The notes under the pieces were generated by a model that ran no database searches, was not told the origin of the DNA, and saw nothing but the letters and a program-made list of their open reading frames with translations. This document shows positions 8,044 to 20,288 of a stretch of DNA of 40,650 bases, piece by piece. Each line of letters starts with the position of its first letter. The stretch's first letter is position 1. A program made the position numbers and the translations under genes. The stretch is from Myxococcales bacterium (GTDB lineage: Bacteria; Myxococcota_A; Polyangia; Polyangiales; Polyangiaceae): positions 1-40,650 of the forward strand of contig JAUVCD010000002.1 of NCBI GenBank assembly GCA_030590865.1, written 5' to 3'.

Positions 8044-9837
8044 TCAGAGCTGTTGGACCAGCGCGACGAGCTGGGCGATCGCCTTGGCCTGTTCGCCTGG
8101 CACATCGGTGGTGAGGTGGATGACGCCATCCTTCTGGCCGGCGCTGAAACACAGCCCGGTCTTCGAGGCCGGGGCATCGGCGAGCTTGGCGACCAGCGGG
8201 TTCTTGCCCCCTAGATCGATGCCCTTGGCGATGTCCAGTGGCGCACCGCACATCAGGAAGAAGGCGTTCGGGGCGGCGTGTTTGAGCGCTCGCACCGTGG
8301 CAGGTGCTTTGTCTAGGCCACTGCCGAGCTTGCCGCCGATGAGTGCCTCGAGCGTGGCTTTGCCATCCTTGCCGTAGGCGACGTAGCCCATGTCTTTGCC
8401 CGTGCCCGTGTGGGTGGTCAACAGGTCCTGGATCATCGGTCCCACTGGCCCGAGCTCGGCCATCGGCTGGGCCATCTTGACCTGCATGGTGGCCACCGTG
8501 ACGTCACCGATCTTGTAGGCCTCAGGTTTGAAGTTCATCGTCAGGCCGAGCTCTTTGTAGCCCTTGGCGATGGCCGGATCTTGGTACATCTCGGCCAGTA
8601 GCTTCATCATCGAGCGAGCCTTTTCGGCGTCTCGCAGGCCCATCAGACCGGTCAGTGCTAGCCCTTTGCCGTCCACTGCCGGGTGGACCGCCACCACGAA
8701 CTCGCCGGTCGTGGCTTTCCAGTAGTCGCTCATCGCGGTGATGTATTTTTCGGGCACCTCGGCGCCGCCAATGCCCATGGTCAGTGACCAGGTGACCAAC
8801 CGTCGAGTCAGCTCACTGGCCCCGTCGGGATCAAGGCTGCCGCCGAAGAAGGCCGATGAATTGGCAGGCAATTTGGAGAGCAAGGTAAGGGGTCGCTTGC
8901 CCAGCATCTTGAAGGTCTTCTCGACCTCTGTGCCCTTCTTGGGGTGCAACTGGAGTGAGAGCAGGCCGCCATCGGCCGAGAGATCGGTCTCGATGACGAC
9001 TTTCTCGAGGTCCTTCACCGTCGCGGCGGCCCAGTCCAACATGGCGTTGAAGCCCTCGACCTGACCCGCCTTGATGCCAGCGGGGCCGGCCGGTCCTGCC
9101 GGGTCGCGCTTGGCGATCTGCTCGAGGCCCGCCTTGGCCTGCTGCAAGCCCTGGTCGATTTCGGTGCCGTAGAGGGTCACCATGTTGACCACCGAGCCCA
9201 CTACGGTGATGCCGCCGGGCAGCTTGGTGTGGACCAGCTCGGTCAGGAATGTCTGGTGAGCGGCGAAGCTACCTGAGTCGGAGCTGATGACGGCCGTGTC
9301 GTCGATGAAGTTCAGATAGGCCGTCTTGTTGCCCTCCGCCTTCCAGGAAAAGGCGTTGCCGCCATCGTCCTTCTTCTTGTCTGCCGGCAGCGCCGCGATG
9401 AGCTTGTCCTTGCCCTTGGTGCCGATCACGATGGTGAGCGGCTCCGGGTGTTTCTTGGGATCGACCACTATGAACCGTGCCGGCTTGGCCAGATCGATTG
9501 CCTCGGCGGTGGTCAACTTGAGCATTCCTTGCAGCCCGGCGGCGGCGACGGCTGGGGATACTGCGTCAGGTGGAATCAGCCCGCCGGACACGCCTTGTGC
9601 TTTGCCCAAGATTTGCTGGAGGTTGTCGACGCCGCCGAAGGCGATCACATTGGCCGGTGCTTTCAGGTCAATCAGCTGCTTGGCGGCCACGGGTGCTGTC
9701 GGCTTGGCAGCCGATGCGCTGCCTTTGGCACCTGGCTGCTTCTTGGCGGTGTCGTCACAGCCTGCGGTCAGCCCCAGCAGCGCGAGCAAGAAGAGCAGGA
9801 ATCGGATTGGGCTCCGGTAGCTTCGTTCGCAGTGCAT
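8044..9837 (-). CDS. Uncharacterised lipoprotein (DUF3352-like overall character, tentative)
   Basis: ORF 8044..9885; start MHCERSYRSPIRFLLFLLALLGLTAGCDD at 9837 gives a lipoprotein signal. Confidence 0.65.
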   Translation of the reverse strand: MHCERSYRSPIRFLLFLLALLGLTAGCDDTAKKQPGAKGSASAAKPTAPVAAKQLIDLKAPANVIAFGGVDNLQQILGKAQGVSGGLIPPDAVSPAVAAAGLQGMLKLTTAEAIDLAKPARFIVVDPKKHPEPLTIVIGTKGKDKLIAALPADKKKDDGGNAFSWKAEGNKTAYLNFIDDTAVISSDSGSFAAHQTFLTELVHTKLPGGITVVGSVVNMVTLYGTEIDQGLQQAKAGLEQIAKRDPAGPAGPAGIKAGQVEGFNAMLDWAAATVKDLEKVVIETDLSADGGLLSLQLHPKKGTEVEKTFKMLGKRPLTLLSKLPANSSAFFGGSLDPDGASELTRRLVTWSLTMGIGGAEVPEKYITAMSDYWKATTGEFVVAVHPAVDGKGLALTGLMGLRDAEKARSMMKLLAEMYQDPAIAKGYKELGLTMNFKPEAYKIGDVTVATMQVKMAQPMAELGPVGPMIQDLLTTHTGTGKDMGYVAYGKDGKATLEALIGGKLGSGLDKAPATVRALKHAAPNAFFLMCGAPLDIAKGIDLGGKNPLVAKLADAPASKTGLCFSAGQKDGVIHLTTDVPGEQAKAIAQLVALVQQL

Positions 9838-10030
9838 GACCTGTGCAGCTCCTTTGGCATTGCGGCAACCACGGGACCCGCGCATCCCTCGAGCGCAGGT
9901 GGGTGCTGCCGTTTCGCGGGCATAAGCGATCAGTGAGACAGCGCCAAGCCGTAGGAAGGTCAGCGTGGTCGTCTCGGACAGCTCTAGTGGGCGACGACTC
10001 GGCTCGCCGGCACCGGCGGTGCCTCGCCAA

Positions 10031-10792: not shown

Positions 10793-12457
10793 ATGCACGG
10801 CATGGCAGCGCAGGGTTGGATGGTTGGGTTGGTCTCGAGCCTGATGGTTGGCTGCTCGAGCCCGGCGCCTCCGACGGGACGGGGTGCCGAGTTGCTGGGC
10901 GACGGAGCTTCAGGGGAGCCGGCGCCGGCAGACAGCGAGGCCTCCTCGGCAGCCCCTTCCACCGCCGCCACGGCCGTGCCTGCTAGCTCAGGCGCCACCG
11001 GCGTTGGGACTCAGAGTCACGGCCAAGCTGGTGCCTCAGGGGACTCGGTAGAGTCGTTTTACGTGGTGGCCAGCTTGCCTGGGGCTGGGCACTTCATGCC
11101 CGTCGACGGTCGGGCCTTCTTGGTGAGTGATGGCCCCACGCTGATCGACATTGCTGAGGATGGAGTTCGGGTCGACGGGAACAAAGTGGCGGGCATGGAG
11201 AAGCCCTTCGACGCTCTCCGGCGAGGCGAAATCGCCACCCTTGCCGGACGTTGGCCCGACGACATCTGGTTGGCGCTCAACGGACGCCAACCGATGGGCG
11301 GCGGGACGTGGCTCTATCGCTGGGCTGGCGACCGGTGGGCTGAGCAGAAGAAGCTCGGGCTTTATGCCACAGGGTCGACCAGCTGGGTCGGGGCGAGCTC
11401 ATTGGTGCTGCTCGAAGCCACCGACGGGAGCCGCAGCGAGCTGCTCCAGGTTCCCATTGGGTCTCCCCAGGTGGTGCCGCGCTTCACCGACGATAGTGGC
11501 GCTTGTCGGATGATCGCCAAGCGGCTCCAGGGGTTTGGGTCCGGTGAGCTCGTCGTCCAGGGGTTGCCCTGTGCCAGCGGGGGTGTCAGCGGAGCCGCCC
11601 GCCGCGGTGGCCTGATCGGCTATTGGCCCGCTGGCGGGACTGACGGCGTGATCGAGCAACTACCGGACATCGATGGAGACCTGTTTGGCATTGCAGCGAT
11701 GGCGGTTCAGTCACCCAAGGTCGCCTACGTTGCCGGTTGGTCTGGTCCAGACGCCAATCATCCCAAGGCCGCCTATCTGGCGCGCTTCGACGGCAACCAG
11801 GCTTACCTCGAGAAGCCGCCCATGAAGGGTCCGCTGATCGATCTGACGATTCATGCCGGTTCGGTGCTCTGGGCCATCGAGGGGAACAAAACGGGTGGGC
11901 AGCAGCTCTGGCGCCGCGGTGCCGACGACCATTGGTTCAAGGTTGTGCTGCCTAGTCATGAGGGGCGGCCGTTGCAGCCCGCGCGCATCTGGGCGCGGGG
12001 GCCAGGCGATCTGTGGCTCGTGGCGAAGGCGGGCCGTCGCTACTGGTTGCTTCATACCCAACAGGCGGACCAGGTGGTCGAGCTGTTGGCGACCCAGGCG
12101 AGCGAGTATCAGTCGCTTGGTGTCGCTACGGCCAGCTGTAGTCCGTTGTTGGTGATTTTGGACGAAGCCAGCGAGGGTGAGCCGCGTCGAGTCACCGCAG
12201 GCCGGGCGCGTGGTGCGCTGGGTGGAGCCGGTGGCCGGGTGTTGCTGGTCGAATACCGGCGGCGAGGAAAGTTGTGCCTCGGCGTGGTGGCCTACACGCT
12301 CACTCAGGCGCGTAGCTATGCCGAGCTCGCCAAGCAGAAGCTGTCCAATGCCGATCCCCGAATCGTGTGTCACGAGCCTCGGAATCGCTTGCGCATGTTC
12401 GTCTACGACCCGGCGACCGGGCAATGGCAGGCGGGCCTGCCTGGTGCGAGTCGGTGA
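10793..12457 (+). CDS. Uncharacterised lipoprotein, possible beta-propeller-like repeats
   Basis: 554 aa; N-term MHGMAAQGWMVGLVSSLMVGCSSPAPP lipobox; Ala/Pro/Ser linker; recurrent W-containing motifs (DDIWLALNG, GDLWLVAKAG, VLWAIEGNK). Confidence 0.7.
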   Translation: MHGMAAQGWMVGLVSSLMVGCSSPAPPTGRGAELLGDGASGEPAPADSEASSAAPSTAATAVPASSGATGVGTQSHGQAGASGDSVESFYVVASLPGAGHFMPVDGRAFLVSDGPTLIDIAEDGVRVDGNKVAGMEKPFDALRRGEIATLAGRWPDDIWLALNGRQPMGGGTWLYRWAGDRWAEQKKLGLYATGSTSWVGASSLVLLEATDGSRSELLQVPIGSPQVVPRFTDDSGACRMIAKRLQGFGSGELVVQGLPCASGGVSGAARRGGLIGYWPAGGTDGVIEQLPDIDGDLFGIAAMAVQSPKVAYVAGWSGPDANHPKAAYLARFDGNQAYLEKPPMKGPLIDLTIHAGSVLWAIEGNKTGGQQLWRRGADDHWFKVVLPSHEGRPLQPARIWARGPGDLWLVAKAGRRYWLLHTQQADQVVELLATQASEYQSLGVATASCSPLLVILDEASEGEPRRVTAGRARGALGGAGGRVLLVEYRRRGKLCLGVVAYTLTQARSYAELAKQKLSNADPRIVCHEPRNRLRMFVYDPATGQWQAGLPGASR

Positions 12458-12479: not shown

Positions 12480-13865
12480 TCACCGTCGGCGCAGGTCACT
12501 GCCTCTGCCCCAGAAGCGTTCCGGATTCACTTTGGTGCCATAGCGCAGCAGGTCGTCGAGCTTGACCAGGAGCTTGTCCACTGGCCTGCTACAGCCTCGA
12601 ATGACCGCCCGGGCCGTCTCGTGGAGCCACCCCTCGGCCTTGTTGAAGGGACAGCAGCGAATGCAGTTGCCGCAGTCGGTGAAGCCGTAACGCTGCCAGA
12701 TTTCGAGGCACCGGTCGGCCTTGACCGGCCACTTGAGCACCGCCGGGTTGTTGCTGACACTCAGCCTCTCGCGGTGCCGCTTGTCGTAGGAGATGGCCTG
12801 ACCTGGGCATTGCTGCGCGCATTTCATGCAGACGTCGCAGAACTCGGTGACCCCAAAGCTGATGGGCCGGTCGGGCTCCAGGGGCAGGTCGGTGATGATT
12901 TTGGCTAGCCGCACTCGGGGGCCGTATTTCGGTGTGATCAGGATGCCCTGGCGGCCCAACTCACCGAGGCCGGCGTCGATGGCCATGGGGATGCTCAGGC
13001 CGGTGTGGTTGGCGCAAGGGATGGCGTTGAAGCCGAGGCCGCGGATGAACTCGGCCAAGCTGGCGGTGGTGAAGGCCATCTGGGAGTAGCCTGCTCCGGT
13101 AGCCGCTGCGCCTACCGCCGAGGGGTAGGCCGAGACGGCTTCCAGATCCATCTCGAAGGCCAGCACGACTACGCGGTTCATGGTTTCGGGAATCACCAGC
13201 GTGCCGTCGTCGCGATACTGCGGCCTGGCCGATCCCGTCGGATCGACTTTCGCGGTCTTCACTTGCCCAGTAGGCAGCGGGACCTCCTCGGTCTTGGTGA
13301 ACAGGATGTTGCCCTGCCCGCCGCTGCCCCTGAAGTCGAAGTAGCGCGAATAGATCCAGCGCTGATCGAGGGTGGCGATACCGACCAGCGAGGCGCCGAG
13401 AAAGTGGCCAGCTTTCTTCACCATCTGGGTGATGTCGCCGTCCGAGAGGTGATCCCGGTCCCAGGGCCCTTCGAGGGCGTCGCGACCGACCATGGCAAAG
13501 AAGGGCTCGAGGCGCAGCAGACCCTGGTGGTCGCCATGGCCGCCAGACCTGGTCTTGAAGGCGCTGGCCACGGTCCAAGAGGCCCCCATCAAGGCGAAGT
13601 CCTCACGACGGAACCCCCGCTTCTGCGTCGCGATTACCTCGGCATAGGAGCGCATCGAACCTGCGAAGCGCTCCTGCATTTCAGCGTCCCAGACCATCCG
13701 ACCGAAGGCACTGTTCTTGGCGTCGAAGCGCTGGTAGGTCGAGTCGTCGACGTCATAGGGGGCTTCGCCCGCAGGGTGTCGTTGGACTTGGACGCCGACC
13801 GCTCGCCTGAGGGAGGAAAAGAGGCCTTCGCCGCCGCTGGTCGCCGGACCCATCGTGACGCGCAT
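12480..13865 (-). CDS. Reductive dehalogenase catalytic-subunit-like protein (corrinoid + two [4Fe-4S] binding type), no Tat signal
   Basis: 461 aa; VKKAGHFLGASLVGIATLD; first cluster FCDVCMKCAQQCPGQAIS (CX2CX2CX3CP); second cluster CLEIWQRYGFTDCGNCIRCCPFNK (CX11CX2CX3CP-like) followed by W-H; N-terminus has no twin-Arg/hydrophobic signal. Confidence 0.75.
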   Translation of the reverse strand: MRVTMGPATSGGEGLFSSLRRAVGVQVQRHPAGEAPYDVDDSTYQRFDAKNSAFGRMVWDAEMQERFAGSMRSYAEVIATQKRGFRREDFALMGASWTVASAFKTRSGGHGDHQGLLRLEPFFAMVGRDALEGPWDRDHLSDGDITQMVKKAGHFLGASLVGIATLDQRWIYSRYFDFRGSGGQGNILFTKTEEVPLPTGQVKTAKVDPTGSARPQYRDDGTLVIPETMNRVVVLAFEMDLEAVSAYPSAVGAAATGAGYSQMAFTTASLAEFIRGLGFNAIPCANHTGLSIPMAIDAGLGELGRQGILITPKYGPRVRLAKIITDLPLEPDRPISFGVTEFCDVCMKCAQQCPGQAISYDKRHRERLSVSNNPAVLKWPVKADRCLEIWQRYGFTDCGNCIRCCPFNKAEGWLHETARAVIRGCSRPVDKLLVKLDDLLRYGTKVNPERFWGRGSDLRRR

Positions 13866-13933: not shown

Positions 13934-14311
13934 TCAGTCTCCGCCGGCGCCGCCATTGCCCCCGGCACCGCCAATGCCCCCGGCGCCTGCAATGCCGCCA
14001 GCACCACCGTCACCAGCGGTGCCGCCGTCGCCGCCCCAGCCCCCGACGTAACCGCCTGCGACGCCATAGGCCATTTGTCCGCCCCAGCCGCTGCTGCTGC
14101 TGCTGCTGCTGCTGACGCCGTAAGCACCTCCGGCGCCACCGGTGCCGTCCGAGCCCCCGTCATCGCAGGCGCCTGTCGAGAGGCCGGCGCTGACTAGCAA
14201 CATGGGAATGACGAGCGCGCCCTTCAACCCTGGCGCCGCGGTGCGCTCTGCCAGCTGGTCTAGGTTTGCACAGAGGCGCTGCAGCTTTTCGCGAATACCT
14301 TGCTCGGACAT
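13934..14311 (-). CDS. Small Gly-rich lipoprotein with poly-Ser tract
   Basis: 125 aa; hydrophobic segment ending STGACDDGG; SSSSSSSSGWGG and GGAGG-type repeats. Confidence 0.55.
   Translation of the reverse strand: MSEQGIREKLQRLCANLDQLAERTAAPGLKGALVIPMLLVSAGLSTGACDDGGSDGTGGAGGAYGVSSSSSSSSGWGGQMAYGVAGGYVGGWGGDGGTAGDGGAGGIAGAGGIGGAGGNGGAGGD
14091..14114. repeat. (CTG)8 trinucleotide microsatellite
   Basis: ctgctgctgctgctgctgctgctg read directly; encodes the Ser8 tract on the minus strand. Confidence 0.95.
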
Positions 14312-16640: not shown

Positions 16641-17516
16641 ATGGATTACGTCGGTCGCATCTACCGTCCGCCAAGCGAAGCCTACAGCCTGCTGTTGCAG
16701 GTGACCGAGGGCTGCAGTCACAACCGCTGCATCTATTGCGGCATGTACCGAGACAAGCCGTTTCGCACCAAGTCCTGGCCGATCATCGAGGCTGATCTGG
16801 TCGAGGCGGCAGCGGCTGGCGAAGTCAGTCGGCGGGTGTTTCTCTGCGATGGCGACGCGCTGGTTCTGTCCCAGCGCCGTCTCTTGCAGATCCTCGAGGG
16901 CATTCGGAAGCGCTTGCCCTGGGTCGAGCGAGTGGGTGTCTACGGTGACACCCGCAGTGTCAACCGCAAGACCGTGGCAGAGCTGCGGCAGCTGCGACAG
17001 CTCGGTCTTGAAATCGTCTATCACGGCGTCGAGTCAGGGAATGACGAGGTGCTCCGCTTCGCGGACAAAGGCGGCACGGCCGCAGAATGCGTCGACACCG
17101 CCGATCGGTTGCGTGAGGCGGAGATTACTCACTCGGTCATTGTCTTGCTCGGCGTCGGTGGCGTGGCGCTGAGCAAGAGGCACGCCCAGGGGACCGGGGC
17201 GCTACTCACCAAGATGGATCCACCTTTCGTTGCGGCGCTGACCACGACGGTGATCCCCGAAACACCACTGGGGCAGCTACAAGAGAAGGGCGCCTTTGAG
17301 CTTCCGAGCAAGTTCGGTCTGCTCGAAGAGCTGCACACCATCGTTGCGGAGAGCGAGCTGACTGGCTGCCGCTTCTCGTCCAATCACGCCAGCAATTACC
17401 TGCCTGTACGCGCGGACTTGCCTCAGGATAAGGCCAAGCTGCTGACGGCTATCCGGGCGGTGATCGACGCTGGTGACGAAGGGGTGCTGCGGCCTGAGTG
17501 GATGCGGGGGCTGTAG
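16641..17516 (+). CDS. Radical SAM protein with CX4CX2C cysteine motif
   Basis: LQVTEGCSHNRCIYCGMYRDKPFR; starts 4 nt after the CPBP stop codon. Confidence 0.85.
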   Translation: MDYVGRIYRPPSEAYSLLLQVTEGCSHNRCIYCGMYRDKPFRTKSWPIIEADLVEAAAAGEVSRRVFLCDGDALVLSQRRLLQILEGIRKRLPWVERVGVYGDTRSVNRKTVAELRQLRQLGLEIVYHGVESGNDEVLRFADKGGTAAECVDTADRLREAEITHSVIVLLGVGGVALSKRHAQGTGALLTKMDPPFVAALTTTVIPETPLGQLQEKGAFELPSKFGLLEELHTIVAESELTGCRFSSNHASNYLPVRADLPQDKAKLLTAIRAVIDAGDEGVLRPEWMRGL

Positions 17517-17613
17517 TGTGGGCCCCTTCCGCCTGAGTGCAGGCCACGGATTCTCGATTCTCTGCCCGCTTCCGCCTCGCGCACGAACCCCCGCACGACC
17601 CCGCTTCCGACCG

Positions 17614-17690
17614 AAGCCGAGCTCGATTCTCGAGTTCGGTTCTCGAGCTCGATGGCTCGATTCTCGATTCTCGGCTCTCGGCCCTCGGCT
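17614..17690. repeat. Low-complexity ATTCTCG / CTCGAG-rich tract
   Basis: gccgagctcgattctcgagttcggttctcgagctcgatggctcgattctcgattctcggctctcggccctcgg. Confidence 0.75.
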
Positions 17691-17692
17691 CC

Positions 17693-17802
17693 GCGGGCGA
17701 GTGCTGCGCGGTCCTCGACTGCGTCTCGCTCTCGGGCAGCATCGAGCAGCACAAGACAAGCTCCGGCGCATCGGCGCCATGCTCTTCAAGCTGAGCAACT
17801 GA
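17693..17802 (+). pseudogene. Probable frameshifted C-terminal remnant of a four-helix-bundle (S23/avd-type) protein
   Basis: Frame 1: AGECCAVLDCVSLSGSIEQHK; continues in another frame DKLRRIGAMLFKLSN*. Together resembles the C-terminal helices of small four-helix-bundle proteins; a frameshift lies near 17750-17765. Confidence 0.4.
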
Positions 17803-18022
17803 CGTCCTGCGGGCTGCAGGCCGCGAGCCGGCAGCCCGCCCGGGGGTCTGATGTGGCCCGTGGGCCTACCGGCTGCACCGCCGGATGAGGCCGCTTCCCT
17901 CACCCTTCCGACCCCGATTTCGAGCAACAAATCGGGCTCGGGGTCGTGCTCGGAGCGCGAGCGCGGGGCGGAAGAGGAAGCGACAACCCGAGCGCTTCCC
18001 TCACGCTGCCGGCCTGTCCCTG

Positions 18023-18055
18023 AGGTTGGACCAACAACTTCGCGAAACGCGAAGT
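18023..18055. repeat. Short dispersed hairpin repeat, copy 1 (aggttggaccaacaacttcgcgaaacgcgaagt)
   Basis: Contains perfect inverted repeat cttcgcg-aaa-cgcgaag (18038-18054) and the ttggaccaa mini-palindrome. Confidence 0.85.
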
Positions 18056-18074
18056 CCCATCATCGACCTCCGGC

Positions 18075-18109
18075 AGGTTGGACCAACAAGTTCGCGTTTC
18101 GCGAAGTTG
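18075..18109. repeat. Short dispersed hairpin repeat, copy 2 (aggttggaccaacaagttcgcgtttcgcgaagttg)
   Basis: Shares 15 nt aggttggaccaacaa with copy 1; hairpin ttcgcg-ttt-cgcgaa at 18091-18105. Confidence 0.85.
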
Positions 18110-18208
18110 CGCCCACGACCTAGCGGAGCAGTGGGGTCCGCAACCCGCTGCTGTACCTCGGCACCCCTCTTCAGCATGGAAATGCGACAACTTGATTTGC
18201 TCCCAGCC

Positions 18209-18335
18209 CTTCCCCCACGCGCACGCCCCCCCCGCTCGCCCCCGCTTCCCTACCGCTTCCGACCCCGACCTAGACCAACCGATCGGGCTCGGGACGGGAT
18301 CGGGGTCGCGCTCGGACCCGTGCGCGTGGGGGAAG
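18209..18335. repeat. Long inverted repeat (17-bp perfect arms) enclosing further complementary GC-rich segments
   Basis: cttcccccacgcgcacg (18209-18225) is the exact reverse complement of cgtgcgcgtgggggaag (18319-18335); inner cgaccccga / tcggggtcg also pair. Confidence 0.85.
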
Positions 18336-18419
18336 CGGAAGCGAAATTGAGCTCGAGGCGCCCTGTTCTTTTTGGGGACCTTGTTGTCCACCTGAGCGTC
18401 CTTGGGGGAGAATGTGGGC

Positions 18420-20288
18420 GTGGGCAGCGACAAGCCCGAATGGGATGCAGAAGGCCTCGAATGGGGCGGTGACGACCTCGAATCTGAGGTCAACGAGCCC
18501 GCGCGCAGCGAGTTCGAGGAGCTGGTGGAGATCGAGCGCGCCACCGCCATGTTGCGGGGGCTCGATCCAGACCAGGCTGAGGACATCGTCGCTGCTCGAT
18601 TTGCGGCCGGTTCGGAGCAGCTCGCCCGGGCGGAGCACACCGATGAGATCCGGACGGAAATCGAGAAGAAGACGCGCCGTCGGCGGCGGCTCATCATCAT
18701 GGCCGTGGCCGGTGTGTTGGTTGTCGGTGCGGCCGCTGTCCCGGTCAGTCGCGCCATCAGGGCCGCGCTCGCTCAGGCCGAAGTGTTCCGTCTTGCCCTG
18801 TCCAAGGCAGGTGCGCCTTTGGCAGACTCTGGGTTCCAGCAGCAGGATGAGTGGCTAGATCTCTCCGAGTCCGGGGCGAGCTTCGATGTGTCTGGGGGCA
18901 CCTGCTCGGCGGTGATTGGCCTGGGTGCGGATGGCACCAAGGCAGGTCCCATCCGGATCGAGCGCCCAAGCGCTGTGATGGAGGGAGCGGAGGGGCAGAT
19001 CTGGTGTTCCTGCAGCGATGAGCGGGTGGTGGTACGGCCCGCACCAGGCACCGAGGGGCGCGTCGCAGCGCGCTGGTGGACTGTGGGAGCTGACGGGGTG
19101 GGCGGCGTTGAGGTGTTGCGAGCCGCTGCCATTGCAGGCTTCTCGGTGAATGTCGATCAGATTGATCTTGCCTGTGCTGACCCCTCTTTTGCGAAGTGGA
19201 CCAGCTCCGAAGGCCGCGGAAGCCCACCGCCGCTGCCGCCCAAGCCAACCGGAGTGACGGCCAAGCTCCTGGCCGCCGGGTTCGAGCCGGTGGGAGGCTT
19301 CCCCACCAGTCGCACCTTCGTCGTGCTCAGGCTTGAGGCCAAGCGGTGCGTGCTGGCCGTGCCCCAAGGGGCGCCTGGCACGCTCTCGCTGCGGGCGGCG
19401 GATGGGACGAGGTTGATTACCGATACTGCGGCTGCGCCAGCCTGGTGTTCCTATGGGAAAGAGGGGCTCTTCTCCTTGTGGCGCAGTGGCGCGGGAGCTG
19501 GAGATGGCGGCGAGAGCGGCGACTACGCCGTCCTCTCCATCCCGGCCGAGCGAGTGGGCGGGATGGCTGGGCTGCGGGAGCTCACCGGCAGTCAAGGGCT
19601 CGAGTCACTGGCCACGGTGCTAGGGGGGGCGGACCTGACCGCCGATGCCCTCGCGGCCCTGGAGGCCAGCACCGTTCCCATCGCGTCGAGTGTCCGTGCG
19701 GTGAACGGCAGCCTGGCCAAGAAGCTAGGTCACCGAGTGGTTGCCTTCTCCCAGCTAGAGGCGGGCGCCTTCGTCGTAGACACCTCCCCCGAGGCTCGGC
19801 TGGCCTGCTCGCCCAAGCAGGACACCCGTGCGACGGTCAATGCCTTCGTCTGCGTCCAGGCCCAGGCTCAGGGGTGGCGCGGTGGTGGCACCGAAGCGGT
19901 GCAGGCGGCCGCTTCAGGCCCGTTGCCCGCCTGGCTGAAGTTGCTTGCCGACGTGCGGGATCCGGAGGTCGTCGACGTGATGGCCCCGTTGCTCCGATTG
20001 GCACGGCACATGGCGGCTCGGGGCAGTGAGCCCACGACGACCGATGGCGTCGAGGAGAGCGTGAGGGGTGCCACCATCAGCGGCCGGCCCCACAAGACCG
20101 AGGTCGTAGCTGTTGGCTTGACCAAGACGCGGCCCTGGGTCCATCCCCTCACCGACGACCAGCCGTGGACGCTCGATGGGCCTGTGCATGCCGTGAAGGT
20201 CACGCCGGGCGGTTACGTCAAGCTCAAGGCCAGGCACTCGCTGGGGTATAACGCCGCGTCACGGCGCGTCGTGGTCTGGCGGCGCTGA
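18420..20288 (+). CDS. Uncharacterised single-pass membrane protein with internally duplicated extracytoplasmic modules
   Basis: ORF 18402..20288; acidic N-term, TM RRRRLIIMAVAGVLVVGAAAVPVS, then modules with C-AV-GA-GT-DG-WCS pattern. Exact start uncertain. Confidence 0.7.
   Translation: MGSDKPEWDAEGLEWGGDDLESEVNEPARSEFEELVEIERATAMLRGLDPDQAEDIVAARFAAGSEQLARAEHTDEIRTEIEKKTRRRRRLIIMAVAGVLVVGAAAVPVSRAIRAALAQAEVFRLALSKAGAPLADSGFQQQDEWLDLSESGASFDVSGGTCSAVIGLGADGTKAGPIRIERPSAVMEGAEGQIWCSCSDERVVVRPAPGTEGRVAARWWTVGADGVGGVEVLRAAAIAGFSVNVDQIDLACADPSFAKWTSSEGRGSPPPLPPKPTGVTAKLLAAGFEPVGGFPTSRTFVVLRLEAKRCVLAVPQGAPGTLSLRAADGTRLITDTAAAPAWCSYGKEGLFSLWRSGAGAGDGGESGDYAVLSIPAERVGGMAGLRELTGSQGLESLATVLGGADLTADALAALEASTVPIASSVRAVNGSLAKKLGHRVVAFSQLEAGAFVVDTSPEARLACSPKQDTRATVNAFVCVQAQAQGWRGGGTEAVQAAASGPLPAWLKLLADVRDPEVVDVMAPLLRLARHMAARGSEPTTTDGVEESVRGATISGRPHKTEVVAVGLTKTRPWVHPLTDDQPWTLDGPVHAVKVTPGGYVKLKARHSLGYNAASRRVVVWRR

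Follow-up and report, generated by a model that had tools for sequence, protein, structure and literature searches.

Reductive dehalogenases (RdhA) usually possess an export signal and membrane partners. The respiratory enzyme PceA of Sulfurospirillum multivorans (4uqu; 8q4h is the catalytic subunit of a menaquinol:organohalide oxidoreductase complex) is Tat-exported and has a membrane partner, and the roles of its residues Tyr246, Asn272, Arg305 and Trp376 have been described (PMC5500849). The catabolic enzymes NpRdhA and BhbA likewise belong to the RdhA family and, according to the literature, have neither a Tat signal nor RdhB, and they carry a fused electron-transfer module. Both Tat signal and rdhB are also missing in hybrid RdhAs, which usually have three N-terminal membrane helices (PMC6797604). 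One survey detected a Tat signal in only 16 of 35 RdhAs from Deltaproteobacteria (PMC6299228). The signal is missing from the RdhAs of DEH-C11 and Desulfobacula toluolica (PMC4959651), from those of the Smkt1 cluster and of Anaeromyxobacter dehalogenans 2CP-C (PMC3939436), and from those of Loki- and Thorarchaeota, which resemble PceA most and retain Tyr246/Asn272/Arg305 (PMC6737245). Deltaproteobacteria, Chloroflexi and Asgard archaea have all yielded orphan RdhAs without a signal before, and what these enzymes do is posed as an open question in PMC6797604 and PMC4959651.

We analyzed an rdhA-like gene in a stretch of 40,650 nucleotides, hereafter the window, which is contig C741 of its host assembly. 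The following features were assigned to the gene and its 461-aa product:

12480..13865, minus strand: rdhA-like gene, ORF with ATG start, 461 aa, signal-less reductive dehalogenase catalytic subunit (TIGR02486; PF13486)
13797..13865, minus strand: residues 1-23, in place of a signal peptide; without homology to the Tat-bearing relative L052, no Tat features, mostly pLDDT <50
13374..13421, minus strand: residues 149-164, VKKAGHFLGASLVGIA, where the conserved match to the corrinoid domain begins; alignable with PceA VKFAARMAGADLVGVA and with Tat-bearing relatives
13086..13088, minus strand: Tyr260, equivalent of PceA Tyr246, the proposed proton donor (4uqu alignment; role PMC5500849); invariant in a 20-row alignment
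13008..13010, minus strand: Asn286, equivalent of PceA Asn272 (4uqu alignment)
12909..12911, minus strand: Arg319, equivalent of PceA Arg305 (4uqu alignment); nearly invariant in the 20-row alignment
12804..12839, minus strand: residues 343-354, FeS1 motif CDVCMKCAQQCP; cysteines invariant in the 20-row alignment
12696..12698, minus strand: Trp390, equivalent of PceA Trp376, a wall of the substrate pocket (4uqu alignment; role PMC5500849)
12648..12710, minus strand: residues 386-406, FeS2 motif C386-X11-CGNCIRCCP; cysteines invariant in the 20-row alignment

Judged by its sequence, the product of 12480-13865 is a genuine RdhA. The sequence-only reading had come to this identity from two ferredoxin-like motifs with RdhA-type spacing and a corrinoid-domain-like segment, and all three were recovered. 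Both cluster patterns, CX2CX2CX3CP (residues 343-354) and CX2CX3CP (within residues 386-406), are present, and the segment VKKAGHFLGASLVGIA aligns with its PceA counterpart. Because shuffling the protein 20,000 times never produced the double motif and the match to the NCBIfam reductive dehalogenase family TIGR02486 reached 231 bits (cut-off 160.35), chance can be excluded as the source of the motif pair. In the Pfam profile search the protein scored 29.8 bits with PF13486 (cut-off 24.3), and two 4Fe-4S dicluster models were also above their cut-offs. The NCBIfam QueG model TIGR00276 reached only 54.6 bits, far below its own cut-off of 200. In the host genome this is the single RdhA above cut-off.

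By sequence, the best solved chains were 8q4h (1.5e-64) and 4uqu (7.2e-62), followed at a distance by NpRdhA (1.5e-25) and QueG (6.5e-9). The AlphaFold model (pTM 0.81, mean pLDDT 75, low confidence at residues 1-14 and 20-28) gave the same order in Foldseek, with PceA structures matching best (8q4h, 7e-30; 4ur3, 2e-27) and weaker matches to NpRdhA (about 4e-19) and then QueG (2e-8). TM-scores of 0.60-0.69 between the predicted model and the PceA structures support a PceA-like fold. In the 4uqu sequence alignment, the catalytic Tyr, Asn and Arg are kept (Tyr260, Asn286, Arg319). The protein is like PceA in keeping this Tyr/Asn/Arg set, the Trp376 equivalent and both cluster motifs; it has no Tat signal and no recognised membrane partner nearby, and shares about 27-29% identity with PceA in the fold alignment.

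A maximum-likelihood tree of 23 rows, from which the signal-less clades of the literature (DEH-C11, Smkt, Asgard) were left out, grouped the protein with L052, L005, two PceAs, Oceanirhabdus enzymes and two further myxobacterial proteins. The opposite side of the split (88/100) contained NpRdhA and the hybrids with membrane helices, so that the PceA grouping has moderate bootstrap support. Unlike NpRdhA and BhbA, which are on this other branch, our protein ends after the RdhA part, and Pfam detected no C-terminal flavin/NAD and ferredoxin reductase domains. It also differs from the hybrid RdhAs, likewise on the other branch, in having no membrane helix. QueG has a related corrinoid and 4Fe-4S fold, but its fold similarity to our protein is much lower than that of PceA, and the sequence similarity is weak and confined to the cluster domain region. 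Sequence, tree and fold all place the protein with PceA, the respiratory type, and not with the cytosolic catabolic RdhAs or QueG, whose lack of a Tat signal the sequence-only reading had cited. Assignments to QueG (profile score, sequence and fold), to a plain ferredoxin (scores and fold) and to the NpRdhA type (sequence scores and fold) were ruled out. Plasmid records held distant RdhAs only, the best being from Sulfurospirillum (31%), and a peptide-pattern scan of genome contigs yielded only two relatives because the patterns were strict.

The absence of a Tat signal, one of the claims made from the bare sequence, was confirmed for every start and frame. The listed ATG is the earliest possible start in the rdhA frame, and neither the codons back to the upstream stop nor the other two frames contain an RRxFxK ahead of a hydrophobic run; three-frame inspection ruled out a signal hidden by another start or by a frameshift. 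The N-terminal hydrophobicity maximum was 0.43-1.04 (15-aa windows over the first 80-90 positions, with the 1.04 window at residue 89), as compared with 1.56-1.87 near the RR motif of Tat-bearing relatives, and no hydrophobic segment that could form an N-terminal transmembrane helix was seen. The nearest relative found, L052 from another Polyangia genome (41% identity), has the Tat signal RRHFFK, and 10 bases downstream of it lies a gene for a PceC-like membrane protein in which FMN-binding and Fer4_5 domains are combined. Since the local alignment with L052 begins at our residue 24, which is the start of the mature part of L052, only the signal is missing and the remainder is kept. On this sequence comparison, the export signal was apparently lost from a respiratory-type ancestor. 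L005, from a Poribacteria assembly (38% identity), is also signal-less; no rdhB was seen on its short contig, and the adjoining gene reads as putatively undecaprenyl-diphosphatase-like.

The orphan setting described by the sequence-only reading was found as well. Of the window neighbours profiled, which are part of the ORFs of the 40-kb stretch, none was recognisable as rdhB, rdhC, a regulator or a B12-transport gene, and one Clostridiaceae rdhB query found no match genome-wide in a search that is insensitive. The window contains no cobalamin riboswitch, and promoter and terminator scans returned nothing. The lipoprotein neighbours mentioned earlier do read so from the sequence itself (8044-9885 and 10793-12457), and a small protein with a lipobox-like segment is encoded at 13934-14311 (minus strand), 68 bases upstream of rdhA. 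Taken together, neither a closer QueG or ferredoxin match, nor a fold other than that of PceA, nor a concealed Tat signal or rdhB came to light.

The small protein of 13934-14311 has five paralogues in its own genome (L083, L084, L085, L086 and L087). The family shares about 50-63 N-terminal residues (MSE..IR.KL..IC..LD..A) with a lipobox-like AC, and its tails are Gly-rich with units of the AYG[VIM]P/GGW type. One paralogue (G000:C569) is followed after 65 bases by a radical SAM/SPASM protein with kinship to peptide maturases. No NCBIfam family fits, and the proteins could be precursors of peptides or else unusual lipoproteins. The idea that the 13934-14311 product is a peptide tailored by RdhA is unsupported, because the five paralogues have no enzyme gene in common among their neighbours.

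The host assembly is of the metagenome type (9.5 Mb, 96% complete, 7% contamination, 1123 contigs). A contaminant contig was ruled out: CoaBC of the window is 59-65% identical to the copies in two congeners, several members of the family also have the Rce1-like and YebC genes behind CoaBC in this order, a D-Ala-D-Ala ligase gene is likewise syntenic, and the composition is uniform, rdhA itself fitting the window (GC 0.646, GC3 0.83). Because of this synteny and uniformity, the contig belongs to the host genome. RdhA was not found at 1e-30 in the other sampled genomes of the family; it occurs in 9 of 318 genomes of the class, own genome included, and in 6 of 379 genomes of the phylum sample at 1e-25. 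This patchy presence suggests that rdhA was probably gained horizontally, with loss elsewhere as the alternative. No orthologue close enough for a selection test was found, so that decay of rdhA is conceivable, although the functional residues compared are all intact.

Other RdhA-like proteins were noted in the same sampling. Three from Polyangia (L018, L020, L027) and one from elsewhere in the phylum (L043) have hydrophobic N-terminal helices, comparable to the hybrid RdhAs (PMC6797604). Two others (L017 and L023, from genomes G144 and G142) are NpRdhA-related, signal-less and about 410-430 aa long without a fused reductase domain, and these two genomes encode three to four RdhAs each.

With respect to cofactor supply, the host genome encodes many B12-binding domains, one of which is a methylmalonyl-CoA mutase domain. 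CobS was not found in it at 1e-3, while ten control genomes gave matches; at 96% completeness, this suggests that the host may take up cobamide from outside. TonB-B12 receptor searches gave only matches below the cut-off, with BtuB-related TonB-dependent receptors among them.

These observations lead us to propose, with a probability of about 0.7, that the gene encodes a cytosolic, non-respiratory, corrinoid-dependent dehalogenase of the PceA type, which would use scavenged B12. The gene would stem from an exported, respiratory-type lineage, probably by horizontal transfer, with the signal peptide lost afterwards. A soluble low-potential donor, presumably ferredoxin or flavodoxin, would pass electrons singly through the two [4Fe-4S] clusters to a bound cobamide obtained from outside the cell, and the reduced cobalt would take the halogen off a putative organohalide substrate. 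Tyr260 could donate the proton, and the reaction would probably not be coupled to respiration. The earlier proposal of a cytosolic B12/[4Fe-4S] reductase, active either in dehalogenation or in a new reductive chemistry, stands in so far as the protein is a signal-less orphan RdhA; the new chemistry finds no backing, since all compared PceA catalytic residues are kept and ordinary dehalogenation is the default.

The same residues bear on the idea of a B12/[4Fe-4S] reductase with a PceA fold whose physiological substrate is not halogenated, comparable to QueG and epoxyqueuosine. The orphan setting, with no halogen-linked gene, and the other reduction carried out by a related fold in QueG would fit this idea, but with every compared catalytic residue of PceA conserved and the QueG similarity low and restricted to the region of the cluster domain, we regard it as improbable. 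It is comparably hard to believe that the enzyme leaves the cytoplasm or attaches to the membrane by a route that escaped recognition, and serves respiration together with partners from other loci of the genome. Its closest relatives are indeed exported respiratory-type enzymes, an absent motif is no proof of a cytosolic place (PMC3939436), and partners could lie on missing contigs because the assembly is of the metagenome type (96% complete, 1123 contigs). However, the N-terminus shows neither an RR motif nor a hydrophobic segment, the single, insensitive rdhB query found nothing genome-wide, and no PceC-like gene is present among the profiled neighbours.

A clean loss of the signal exactly at the mature start, together with the patchy presence in the family, would also be expected of a horizontally acquired remnant, whose signal disappeared when the 5' end was rearranged or joined wrongly in assembly, and which is of no further use. 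Against this, the frame is full-length without stops, the invariant residues are kept, the composition is host-like (GC 0.646, GC3 0.83) and a second signal-less relative exists in Poribacteria, so that a remnant appears a poor prospect. Returning to a functional cytosolic dehalogenase, it is conceivable, if rather doubtful, that a respiratory-type enzyme made cytosolic by signal loss now dehalogenates metabolites of prey or competitors, or reduces a non-halogenated substrate.

The novelty implied by the sequence-only reading is smaller than it seemed, because signal-less orphan RdhAs have already been published. Those of DEH-C11, D. toluolica, Smkt1, 2CP-C and the Asgard archaea are like ours in having no Tat signal and often no rdhB; they belong to other lineages, and the likeness is one of published description only. 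In the literature surveyed, no earlier RdhA report from this host group was found. The gene adds one Polyangia family, a rare host for rdhA, to the known hosts, and it represents a compact, unfused case of the PceA type; as its class also contains a relative that bears a Tat signal, the pair would allow a direct test of export loss.

Two further features of the window were noted. A short radical SAM protein of 291 aa is encoded at 16641-17516 (plus strand), after coaBC and the Rce1-like protease gene, and its matches to radical SAM families of NCBIfam all scored far under the respective cut-offs. Diverged direct repeats (52 nt and 47 nt) lie in the intergenic region at 17400-18450, as does an inverted repeat at 18035-18109, whose two 19-nt arms match perfectly and are 37 nt apart.
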